Origin: a virus
Strand: one strand, 5' to 3'
Virus record (IMG/VR): IMGVR_UViG_3300050016_000116
Span: 1-64,000 of that record
DNA length: 64,000 nt
Positions 612 to 6,917 of the stretch are shown piece by piece (the stretch's first letter is position 1; every line of letters begins with the position of its first letter). A program made the position numbers and the translations under genes. The notes beneath the pieces are model-generated. The model had not been told where the DNA came from, searched no databases, and worked only from the letters and a program-made list of their open reading frames with translations.

Positions 612-3236
612 ATGGCGCTCCCGGGAAAAGGTACGTTCTATCCAAGCTGCAAGATGCGGCTCACCATCCGCTTTGAGGAGTTCGGGGACGTCTCGAAGAT
701 TGCAGCTCCTCCCGCGCTAACGACCAAGGCGCTCAGTGGTCTCGGAGGGAACAGGAACACTCTACAGGTCATCGCAGATCCAGCGAACCCGGGAGCGCTC
801 CTGCTCAGTTCGAAAGGGCAGACCCAGGCGCAGCCGTCCACACAGCAGTCATCCTCTTCTGATGACCTCACCTTCGACGTCACGGTTATCCCGAAGACGT
901 TGGACTGGAGCCTGAACGGGATCCGGACCGCAGACCAAGTCACCGCCACCGTCCTCTTCACCGATCTCCCCATTGACCCGCGCACTGTCCGGTCTGTCGC
1001 GGTGGAGGTCTTCATGGGGACGGTCACCGAGGCGGACTGGAATGCAGGCATCCAGGGAAAGCGCCGTGACGGTCCCACCATCGCTGGACAAGGAGAGCCG
1101 CTCAACCTTCTCTCCGACCAGTACGTTGATGGGAATGGGGCTCAGCGCACCAACTCCCGCTTTCAAGGATGGGTCGACAAGTGGAGTGTCGACTTCAAGA
1201 AAGAGGAGTTCATCATCCACCTTGAATGCACGGACAACATACGTCTGTTCATCAACCAGGAGGCTTCCCCTTCCCACGTCATCTCGATGGCAGACCCACT
1301 CGACAAGGCAGTGGCGAACTACCTGGCGAACTTCCCCCAATTCAACGGGCTCTCCGTCCAGTACCTCCCGGTGAACACCGCTCCCCCCGTCCTGAAGAAC
1401 GTGCTCCTCAACACCGCGTTCCGCCCGAACCTTGGTCCTCAACCGACCGGGGGAGGCGCTACGACGCAGCGGATGAGTGTGTGGGACTACCTGACGGACG
1501 TGTGCCGATCCATCGGTCACTCGATTCGGATTGTTGGGACTCGGGTTGTCATCCAACCAGTTCGTTCACTCACATCGAGTGCGAGCACGCAGCGACCGGA
1601 CGATCCCTACCGCCCCAGGAACGTGGATGGGACCGACTACCCGTACCGCACGGTCATCTACGGGTGGAACGTCAAAGAGATGAAGATGTCGCGCCAGTAC
1701 GCGAAGAAGGCACCAACGAATGTGGAGGTGAGGTGCTTTCCGGGAGACACGATCGTTTCAGCCAGGGGCATCGAGCGCATCTACCGTCGTCCCTACTCGG
1801 GGATGATGGTAGCGGCCGACACGAAGGGGACCGGGACTCTCTCCGGAACCCCGAATCACCCAATACTCACCACGCGGGGGTGGGTTCCTCTTGGAGAACT
1901 CCAAGAGGGAGACCACCTTGTCGGCTGCTCTTTCGGTGAGCGGCGAAGCATCCGAGACCCATATGTAGATGCAGGACCAACCCAGCTTTCCAAGCTCTTC
2001 GCTGCGCTTTTGAATGTAGGAGCTGCGAAACGGGTTCGCACCACTGACGACGACTTCCACGGCGATGGGACGGAGACCGAGATCGACGTTGTAGATGTCG
2101 ACGGCTTGTTGGGGAACCGGCTTGAACCCGCGGGAGCGGAGCCACTTCTCCAGTCGCTTTTCTCCGAATCCAATGAGAGCTTTCGTTTTCTGAAGCGCCT
2201 TCGCGCGAGCTACGAGCGAACGGTGAACTTGGTCACGAGGAAGCTTCTTGCCGCGTACCGAGTCTTGAGCCGACTTGGCGATGTTTCGTTTTTCCTCCGT
2301 GGTCATGCGACTGAACCGCAGTTGGCTGGCATCGCAGAGTCCTCGCAACGGAACTCCGTTGCGCTTGAAGATGCGCCTGAAAGTGATCTCGGGGCGTCCT
2401 TCTACGCGCGAGATGGAAGTGATCGATTCCCCGGCGAGGTAACGTTTCACGAGGTCATCAAGATTCGGAAGTACGAGTGGTCGGGTCACGTCTACAACCT
2501 CCAGACTGCTTCTGAGTGGTACATCGCCGGGGGGATCATAACTCATAATTGTTACCAGACTGACCGCAAGGTCGTGATGGTGTCGCGCTGGCCCGCGAAC
2601 AACAAGACCTCTCCCAACGCCGGACGCCTCACGAGTCCCATCCCCGGCAACGCGCAGCCGGACAACAAGTGGACCGTGTTCAACGTCTCGGGCATCAAGG
2701 ACCAAGCGACGCTCGACACCATCGCGCAGTCCACCTACGAAGCTCTCGGACGTCAGGAGTTCGAAGTGGAGGTGGAGACGGACGATCTCACTTCCTTCGG
2801 TGGGGACAACACGGACCCGGACATCTTTGACATGACCGCGGGTGACACGTTCGAGGTCTTCACCCAGCGTGACAAGAACGAGCGCAGCTCTGTCACCTAC
2901 GCAGAGACGAAGCTCTCTGCTCTCTCACTCAACTCCGCGTACATGCAAACGCTCGGGTTCTCCGCGGAGTTCGCGAACCGCTACGCCAAGGCGTACACCA
3001 ACGCGGGCTTCCTCACGACGTTCCGACTCCGGAACATGAAGGTGCGGTGGTCGATCGAGGGAGGGGACGGAGGAGGCATCGCGTTCAGACTTCTCGGGGT
3101 GAACTACCTTGAGGTGAGGATGGACAAGAGCCTCCCTGCTGGTCAGGAGCCTGGTACGTCTGCTCCCACCGCTACTCCAGCGCTTCCTGCCAACAACCAA
3201 CCGCAGTCCACGAACCCGACGATCGAGTTTCCATGA
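612..3236 (+). CDS. Tail/baseplate hub-like protein interrupted by an intein
   Basis: 874 codons, of which residues 375-646 are an intein, leaving a ~602-residue mature protein. Just downstream are a spike protein, a gp25-like protein and a J-like protein, which is the usual place of a baseplate hub (late-control D / gp27 type). I infer hub from position and size; no diagnostic motif proves it. The C-terminal end is Pro/Thr/Asn-rich. The stop overlaps the ATG of the spike gene (ATGA). An alternative role is another tail structural protein. Confidence 0.7.
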   Translation: MALPGKGTFYPSCKMRLTIRFEEFGDVSKIAAPPALTTKALSGLGGNRNTLQVIADPANPGALLLSSKGQTQAQPSTQQSSSSDDLTFDVTVIPKTLDWSLNGIRTADQVTATVLFTDLPIDPRTVRSVAVEVFMGTVTEADWNAGIQGKRRDGPTIAGQGEPLNLLSDQYVDGNGAQRTNSRFQGWVDKWSVDFKKEEFIIHLECTDNIRLFINQEASPSHVISMADPLDKAVANYLANFPQFNGLSVQYLPVNTAPPVLKNVLLNTAFRPNLGPQPTGGGATTQRMSVWDYLTDVCRSIGHSIRIVGTRVVIQPVRSLTSSASTQRPDDPYRPRNVDGTDYPYRTVIYGWNVKEMKMSRQYAKKAPTNVEVRCFPGDTIVSARGIERIYRRPYSGMMVAADTKGTGTLSGTPNHPILTTRGWVPLGELQEGDHLVGCSFGERRSIRDPYVDAGPTQLSKLFAALLNVGAAKRVRTTDDDFHGDGTETEIDVVDVDGLLGNRLEPAGAEPLLQSLFSESNESFRFLKRLRASYERTVNLVTRKLLAAYRVLSRLGDVSFFLRGHATEPQLAGIAESSQRNSVALEDAPESDLGASFYARDGSDRFPGEVTFHEVIKIRKYEWSGHVYNLQTASEWYIAGGIITHNCYQTDRKVVMVSRWPANNKTSPNAGRLTSPIPGNAQPDNKWTVFNVSGIKDQATLDTIAQSTYEALGRQEFEVEVETDDLTSFGGDNTDPDIFDMTAGDTFEVFTQRDKNERSSVTYAETKLSALSLNSAYMQTLGFSAEFANRYAKAYTNAGFLTTFRLRNMKVRWSIEGGDGGGIAFRLLGVNYLEVRMDKSLPAGQEPGTSAPTATPALPANNQPQSTNPTIEFP
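1734..2549 (+). other. Intein in the tail hub-like protein
   Basis: 272 residues. Block A begins Cys-Phe-Pro-Gly-Asp-Thr-Ile-Val. Block B is Gly-Thr-Pro-Asn-His-Pro-Ile-Leu, with the His codon at 1857-1859. Blocks F/G read HVYNLQTASEWYIAGG and end Thr-His-Asn, followed by extein Cys (TGT at 2550). These are the standard class 1 splicing residues (C1, TxxH, HN, C+1). Between the Hint halves the sense strand has no endonuclease motif; the endonuclease is on the opposite strand. Confidence 0.93.
1758..2546 (-). CDS. Antisense Vsr/EDxHD-type homing endonuclease inside the intein
   Basis: 262 codons from the ATG at 2546, covering nearly the whole intein on the other strand, with codons in register with the sense codons. 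Residues ~30-70 look like the helix-turn-helix head of this family (YLAGESITSISR, GVPLRG, RMTTEEKR). Residues ~129-197 are the Vsr-like nuclease core (EKRLEKWLRSRGF, PQQAVDIYNVDL, IAVEV, GWSCIYIWV). The end of the fold, EYWVIRGSGE, is the exact complement of intein block B. Where relatives usually have a Trp-His after the AVE strand, this one has Asn-Pro-Phe, so activity is uncertain. No ribosome site is visible before the ATG; other starts are possible. Confidence 0.75.
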   Translation of the reverse strand: MSYDPPGDVPLRSSLEVVDVTRPLVLPNLDDLVKRYLAGESITSISRVEGRPEITFRRIFKRNGVPLRGLCDASQLRFSRMTTEEKRNIAKSAQDSVRGKKLPRDQVHRSLVARAKALQKTKALIGFGEKRLEKWLRSRGFKPVPQQAVDIYNVDLGLRPIAVEVVVSGANPFRSSYIQKRSEELGKLGWSCIYIWVSDASPLTERAADKVVSLLEFSKRNPPPRGEYWVIRGSGESPGPLRVGRYHHPRVGTTVDALDAPG

Positions 3237-5673: not shown

Positions 5674-5747
5674 TCTGCGAATGATGGACTCAGCTACTAC
5701 CTCCACTTGGAGTGGTGAGAATCTTCATTGGGGAAAGGTATAGTCGA

Positions 5748-6917
5748 GTGGACCTCCCCTCGCGTCTCACTTTGTACAGCATTGGGCGGGACTACATCGT
5801 ATCGAGGAACACGAAGATCGACCCGGGGCAGGTCGATGTCCTCGGATCGGATGCCAACGTCTTCGTCGGTTCCAACTCCGTCATCGGTGCATCGATCGTC
5901 CGCCAGCTCGGGTACGCGGCAGCGCGGATGTTCCTCGATGGGGCGGTGGGGGACGATCTTGATCGTCTCGCGTTCGATCGCTACGGGATGACCAGGAAGG
6001 GAGCGAGCGCGGCTCTCGGTTCTGTCTCGTTCACGCGCCCTACCTTCGGAGCGGGCGGTGGAAGTCTTCTCGTAGGGACCATTCTCCAGACGCTCACGGG
6101 GGTTCAGTACATCACGACCACCGCAGCGACATTCGGACCGACCGATCTCGGGACTCCGACCGCGAACGTGCGCGCGGTCCAGGCAGGGAAGGCGTCTCAG
6201 GTCGGCATCAACTCGATCACGAAGATCATCCCATCTCCCGCTGCACCCCTCTTCGACCCGTCGATCATCGTCACTAATCCCCTCGCGACAGCAGGCGGGG
6301 AGGACACGGAGAATGACGACATCTTCCGGGCGCGCATCCGCAACTTCTGGAACACGGCGCGCCGCGGTGTCCTCTCTGCGATCGAGTTCGGCGCGACGAG
6401 TGTGCCCGGTGTCGTCTCAGCGCAGGCGTTCGAGTTCTTCACCGGGGGAGGGTTCCCAGCTCGAATCGTGGCGCTCTACATCGCGGATTCGAGCGGAGTA
6501 GCAAGTCAGGCGCTCGCAGCGCTCGTAGATGCGTCCCTTCAGGACTTCCGTGCAGCGGGCATCACTGTCCTCATCTTCACCAGTCTCCCATTCATCGTGA
6601 GCGTGCAGCTCAAGCTCGCATTCGAGACTGGCGTGGACACCATCACCCTTTCCAACACCATCCTCGCGGCGGTGGTCAGCTTCATCAACTCCATCCCCGT
6701 CAACTCTCCGCTCTACCTGAACCAACTCGGCGCAGTGCTCGCGCGGTTCGTCTCTCTCGGGCTTGTGCCTGGTGACTCGTCTGTCGTCTCTCCGGTGGGA
6801 GACGTCTTCCCGACTCCCGGTCAGACCATTCGCGCGACTCCCCAGAGCGTCACGTTGGCTCCCACGAGTACAGCTCAACCCAGGTCTCTTCTGCTCAGAG
6901 CTTCGCGGCTCATCTGA
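5748..6917 (+). CDS. Baseplate J-like protein
   Basis: About 389 residues. The order of sequence features fits the J / gp47 / gp6 wedge family: GDDLDRLAFDRYGMTRKGA near the N-terminus, GEDTENDDIFRARIRNFW in the middle, then ARRGVLSAIEFGATSVPGV and a beta-rich C-terminal part. I prefer the GTG at 5748 because GGGGAAAGG lies 9 bases upstream; GTG codons at 5712 and 5715 are also in frame. It overlaps the next gene by one base (TGATG). Confidence 0.85.
   Translation: MDLPSRLTLYSIGRDYIVSRNTKIDPGQVDVLGSDANVFVGSNSVIGASIVRQLGYAAARMFLDGAVGDDLDRLAFDRYGMTRKGASAALGSVSFTRPTFGAGGGSLLVGTILQTLTGVQYITTTAATFGPTDLGTPTANVRAVQAGKASQVGINSITKIIPSPAAPLFDPSIIVTNPLATAGGEDTENDDIFRARIRNFWNTARRGVLSAIEFGATSVPGVVSAQAFEFFTGGGFPARIVALYIADSSGVASQALAALVDASLQDFRAAGITVLIFTSLPFIVSVQLKLAFETGVDTITLSNTILAAVVSFINSIPVNSPLYLNQLGAVLARFVSLGLVPGDSSVVSPVGDVFPTPGQTIRATPQSVTLAPTSTAQPRSLLLRASRLI

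Follow-up and report, generated by a model that had tools for sequence, protein, structure and literature searches.

The window analyzed here, a stretch of 64,000 nucleotides of viral DNA (IMG/VR record IMGVR_UViG_3300050016_000116), very likely carries a mobile intein with an antisense homing endonuclease: the nuclease gene lies within the intein, on the strand opposite the linker. Only slightly less assured is the broader view that this element represents a large and ancient class in tailed phages. In this class, the intein would occupy one strand and the homing endonuclease would lie fully inside it on the other, its ribosome-binding site, start and stop being written in intein codons and one segment, FHGD on the sense strand facing VAVE on the antisense strand, being doubly constrained.

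The host gene (612-3236, plus strand) is a single continuous ORF of 874 amino acids including the intein, leaving an extein of 602 residues, and it is not a MuF gene. Its product is probably a component of the baseplate or tail hub, since the gene is located shortly upstream of a Baseplate_J gene (5712-6917). Homologs of its N-extein were sought in phages and in IMG/VR and none was found; likewise, no intein-less relative of the gene occurs in the collections searched. The intein (1734-2549, plus strand) is 272 amino acids long, from Cys1 to Asn272, and is followed by Cys+1. It had been described in an initial annotation as a normal intein, and it bears all the expected features: a block A Cys, a block B of the TxxH type (TPNHP, 1848-1862), a block F (GHVYNL, 2484-2501) and a block G in which HN precedes a Cys (ITHN/C, 2538-2552, read from the sequence), all on the plus strand. 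The Pfam family Intein_splicing matches the insert with an E-value of 4.7e-9, its PDB matches are inteins, and the block B His (H42) is invariant among 50 inteins. The AlphaFold2 model of the sense product reaches pLDDT values of 93-98 at residues 1-60 and 241-272; confident folding is limited to this splicing domain and a short segment, most of the linker being at ~40. Judged by its motifs, the sense strand of the window is a canonical intein, with splicing predicted. To note, a match of the 612-3236 product to PHROG 15127, ‘head protein’ (1.4e-32), spans residues 336-567, mostly intein, and the intein, not the host protein, is therefore the probable source of that label.

On the minus strand, the initial annotation had delineated an ORF of 262 codons (P0001, 1758-2546) starting with an ATG at 2546, each codon of which is the reverse complement of a sense intein codon. 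The frame is indeed open in codon register, the complement of block B does read WVIRG, and the ATG is the complement of the penultimate His of the intein. The proposed start, however, is probably not the true one. The better candidate is a GTG at 2489-2487, which lies opposite the codon of the block F His; a Shine-Dalgarno sequence, GGAGG (2502-2498, minus strand), conserved in the family, stands 8 nt ahead of it. The complement of block F carries this start codon and most of the Shine-Dalgarno. The likeliest extent of the gene is 1758-2489 (minus strand, 243 amino acids), with the stop codon at 1760-1758 within the intein. Residues 1-19 of P0001 are probably untranslated, and residues 240-262 are predicted to be disordered.

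The same signals recur throughout the family. The start codon facing the block F His is ATG in 106 of 142 cases and GTG in 10 of 142, and the consensus upstream of it, GGAGGTTRTANAC, is a Shine-Dalgarno with 8-nt spacing. The codon choice of the intein is skewed to match: CAT is used for the block F His at a ratio of 106:10, versus 457:660 in exteins (p=1.4e-27), and at the block F Leu, whose codon specifies the Shine-Dalgarno on the other strand, CTC accounts for 84/104 (81%) versus 24% in exteins (p=1e-33). The antisense stop falls within the intein in 145 of 154 cases; when residue 2 of the intein is a Leu, its codon is TTA or CTA in 50/59 (p=7e-33). By this codon usage, the antisense start, stop and Shine-Dalgarno are under selection inside the intein motifs. 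No sigma-70 promoter was detected near the antisense start by a scan limited to the sigma-70 type, and the promoter/terminator scan came back empty. Part of the antisense gene of Salmonella phage sam (L018:2691-3092, plus strand) is already listed in GenBank as a hypothetical protein, unlinked to the intein.

Substitution patterns indicate which strand is selected. In this register, the antisense wobble base corresponds to the first position of the sense codon. Among 16 independent intein pairs, linker differences at sense positions 1/2/3 amount to 816/240/512, those of the flanking exteins to 290/196/770 (16 pairs), and position 1 exceeds position 3 in the linker of every pair (16/16). Identity in the linker is 0.82 for the antisense translation versus 0.72 for the sense one, the extein giving the reverse (0.56 versus 0.825). 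Furthermore, none of the first 23 loci has an antisense stop (0 in 23/23), while up to 21 would be expected from extein codon usage; in AT-rich phages 13-21 stops are expected and the frames are open. The window has a GC content of 0.58 and 2.3 expected stops, and the probability of finding none is ~0.1, so its open antisense frame means little alone and the weight rests on the family. The antisense strand has, in these alignments, the signature of a gene under purifying selection.

The family is widespread. A tblastn search with the antisense protein retrieved homologs in 125 phage records (among the matches listed, mostly in genes annotated as head morphogenesis, MuF or minor capsid), and further homologs were found at more than 200 loci in IMG/VR, on 2 plasmids and on 9 bacterial contigs. 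The combined set comprises 228 loci, 164 of them non-redundant at 80%. The sense strand is open in register at 227/228 of the loci found with the antisense protein (233/234 hits), and both intein ends are present in 221 of 229 sense frames. Since the 23 loci of the stop test had been ascertained by their match to the antisense protein, a control set of 80 inteins was collected with no criterion but the sense splicing motif. The antisense nuclease is present in 79 of these 80, intact as far as the contig runs. Three of four apparent exceptions were frame errors at contig ends; the remaining one, L261, is a 172-amino-acid mini-intein with a decayed nuclease remnant. A conserved intein over a broken antisense frame, named in the initial annotation as evidence that would count against it, is therefore seen once in 80, and this single case does not contradict the proposal because such mini-inteins are predicted by the homing cycle.

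Two independent loci depart from the nested arrangement. In L019, an intein-less MuF gene is directly followed by the nuclease, a free-standing gene in convergent orientation; the bacterial contig L230 has the same layout, with the nuclease beside an intein-less MuF gene. At both, the sense strand opposite the nuclease is closed. In a midpoint-rooted tree, both fall within the family of in-intein nucleases, which, as far as midpoint rooting can be trusted, makes them look like secondary escapes. An identification as a Vsr repair enzyme or an ordinary free-standing gene was rejected, as just these two independent free-standing lineages exist, both within the nested clade of that tree. A free-standing copy retains EYQVVWGDG, related to the YWVIRG end that had been put forward as a family hallmark; this end is weak evidence by itself, since it is partly dictated by block B.

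The antisense product combines an N-terminal helix-turn-helix (2361-2462, minus strand, P0001 residues 29-62; Pfam HTH_58/HTH_23 and AlphaFold2 helices) with a PD-(D/E)XK or Vsr-EDxHD-like nuclease domain (1851-2168, minus strand, residues 127-232). Single-sequence Pfam matches are weak (HTH_58, 0.0023; MTES_1575, 0.0098), and a PDB search with the single protein gave no match; the profile of 92 relatives alone succeeded, with I-Bth0305I (3R3P) on top (E=3.9e-6) and the endonuclease-like 3HRL second (8.7e-6). MTES_1575 is found in 63/92 members and resolvase-type HTH domains in many. The AlphaFold model has a mean pLDDT of 88.5, with 95-98 for the HTH and the nuclease core, as compared to ~40 for most of the sense linker; confidence is low only at residues 240-262 and over the initial ~20 residues, which precede the proposed GTG. 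The core comprises a helix (127-138), three strands (144-149, 152-158 and 161-167), a helix (176-187) and a strand (191-197), the arrangement of a PD-(D/E)XK fold, with D155 and E164 on core strands. A Foldseek search against the PDB also gave 3R3P as the best hit (probability 0.99, although with an E-value of 0.014). The assignment to the Vsr/EDxHD-type family made from the sequence alone is thus borne out by profile, Pfam family and fold, the match being significant by profile.

The catalytic core residues E129 (2160-2162), D155 of the YNVD motif (2082-2084) and E164 of the AVE motif (2055-2057), all on the minus strand, are invariant in 92/92 members. The EDxHD type is upheld by E129 and D155, but the window copy lacks the motif His: it has Asn171 where 76% of relatives have a His at the aligned position, the putative catalytic equivalent of the EDxHD His. 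R181 is kept beside E129, D155 and E164, and the motif His is also absent from several intact relatives. Because Asn171 replaces the common His, the activity of the window copy itself is uncertain; this copy may be weakened or may use a variant site. Profile and model together identify the antisense product as an HTH plus PD-(D/E)XK nuclease closest to I-Bth0305I, for which DNA cleavage is predicted. In the nuclease of a Streptomyces plasmid-prophage (L024:2321-2420), a zinc finger-like CxxC...C...C motif is found at the N-terminus, ahead of the HTH.

One spot appears to be read on both strands. The sense motif FHGD (2055-2066, plus strand) is the complement of the nuclease VAVE, E164 facing the sense residue F108, and its entropy is low at each of the three codon positions. 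Even the wobble bases of the antisense codons are nearly invariant here, which suggests that the sense FHGD residues matter too, and the mini-intein L261 keeps FHGD after the decay of its antisense gene. The segment is thus apparently constrained on both strands, judging from these alignments. The recurrent DFHGDG motif of phage MuF inteins finds here an explanation: it sits opposite the catalytic core.

Relatives with and without the insert, the comparison that the initial annotation had called for, reveal the mobility of the element. With the empty MuF site as query, the site is uninterrupted in 273 of 334 records, nearly all Salmonella phages, and in most of the remaining ones it is split at the same base. 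The inteins of E. coli phage Snoke and Salmonella phage sam are 95.7% identical, with flanks at 73.6%; conversely, the flanks of Snoke and KMB36 are 89.6% identical and their inteins are unrelated and occupy different sites. These empty sites and mismatches between intein and extein identity show that phages acquire and lose the element and pass it on to one another. All this evidence comes from the sites of relatives, since no intein-less relative of the window host gene turned up in the collections searched. In the closely related Kagunavirus pair L017 and L020, unrelated inteins of the antisense-nuclease class occupy two different sites of the same MuF gene.

The host genes are mostly MuF, and unrelated genes are also used. 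In Virus Rctr197k (L025:616-1968), the host is a dCMP deaminase (Pfam, 2.4e-15) whose PCxxC zinc motif is split by the intein; the gene is annotated as ‘putative head morphogenesis protein’, an annotation probably inherited from the intein. The host in L085 is possibly a glycosyltransferase, on a weak match. The intein-bearing MuF gene of Salmonella phage NBSal007 (L318:1072-2931) is annotated as ‘NAD+--asparagine ADP-ribosyltransferase’.

The element probably spreads by homing, through the nuclease made from its antisense strand. The host mRNA would yield a precursor from which the intein is spliced out, while an antisense transcript would provide the free nuclease. The latter would cleave the insertion site in host gene alleles that lack the intein; repair templated by the intein-bearing allele would then duplicate intein and nuclease together, the intein serving to hide the insertion from the host protein. 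Being a protein separate from the intein, the nuclease could be expressed at another time than the splicing activity.

Could the antisense conservation be a mere reflection, the intein being conserved on the sense strand and its complement looking conserved and nuclease-like through codon complementarity? In GC-rich DNA an in-register antisense frame is commonly free of stops, which the window value of ~0.1 illustrates, WVIRG is the complement of TPNHP, and FHGD is itself constrained on the sense strand. Yet the reversal of codon positions in all 16 pairs, the open frames of AT-rich phages, the selected start, Shine-Dalgarno and stop codons, and the confident nuclease fold with its I-Bth0305I match all speak against this explanation. 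It is refuted by the free-standing homologs with a closed sense strand and by the position-1 substitution excess, and we regard its probability as close to nil.

It is improbable, though less so, that the nuclease is real and does not home, serving the phage instead, for example by cutting intein-less competitors or through Vsr-like repair. Nuclease-mediated interference between phages is known, and the persistence of free-standing convergent copies beside intein-less MuF genes indicates that retention of the nuclease does not require an intein. Against this, the nuclease is almost always locked in an intein, and its sporadic presence at one site and its transfer with the intein form a homing pattern. 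The two roles are not exclusive. More plausible than these, and still unlikely, is that the family homes and the window copy is a decaying relic. Asn171, a GTG start instead of ATG, and a new host gene without close relatives would fit such a relic, whereas the open frame, the retention of E129, D155, E164 and R181, the perfect GGAGG, the pLDDT of 95-98 and the intact relatives that also lack the motif His do not. The preferred reading remains a mobile intein with an antisense homing endonuclease.

Each of the closest known systems shares part of this architecture. I-Bth0305I, an EDxHD enzyme, resembles the window nuclease by its catalytic domain, the invariant E and D, and DNA-binding modules beside the nuclease domain; it is filed in the PDB as a mobile intron protein, whereas the window gene is antisense inside an intein and lacks the His. 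Ordinary endonuclease-containing inteins (e.g., LAGLIDADG) have the same blocks A, B, F and G with the nuclease between B and F, but there it is fused in frame, and here the opposite strand encodes it as a protein of its own. Fractured genes, reportedly described by Dassa and colleagues in 2009, are said to have an intein split in two, its halves flanking a free-standing EDxHD-type nuclease. They too associate an intein with a separately translated Vsr-like nuclease, but their host gene is split, whereas here host gene and intein are continuous and overlapped by the nuclease on the other strand; the continuous host ORF (612-3236) rules out a fractured gene or split intein.

Antisense homing endonuclease genes also occur within a self-splicing element in nuclear rDNA group I introns (PMC9548176); those involve a His-Cys enzyme and an RNA intron, in which the overlapped strand need not code, whereas here both strands code. 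The ShiLan element (PMC11855218) is a hidden out-of-frame HNH in a phage methylase, with no splicing domain detected. It is likewise an insertion open in the host frame with an endonuclease in another frame, sporadic in phages, but its HNH lies on the same strand in a shifted frame. The antisense strand, the non-HNH nuclease and the splicing domain of the canonical intein rule out a hidden HNH of this type in the window.

The initial annotation had considered a fully overlapping antisense arrangement unknown. No description of an antisense nuclease in an intein was found in the literature searched, a coverage in which subscription journals are largely absent and which leaves priority uncertain; the arrangement is widespread and not unique to the window. 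What appears new, from the gene layout, is a mobile intein with an unusual genetic architecture, the nuclease being antisense. Splicing and homing, which together make up the intein life cycle, would be placed on opposite strands, so that production of the nuclease would depend neither on the host protein nor on its timing. Two unrelated protein functions, both well folded, also rarely share base pairs as they do here over ~730 bases, and with more than 160 non-redundant examples the evolution of an antisense overlap becomes measurable. Intein surveys reading the host frame alone miss such nucleases; in phages Snoke and KMB36, the annotators recorded the intein and not the nuclease.

Finally, positions 1-135 of the window consist of a tandem repeat of ~9-15 bases (cactcgccg / cactcctcgccg). 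It encodes the Ala/Ser/Arg-rich C-terminal tail (AASAASAARS) of a minus-strand ORF (2-613) that continues past the window edge.
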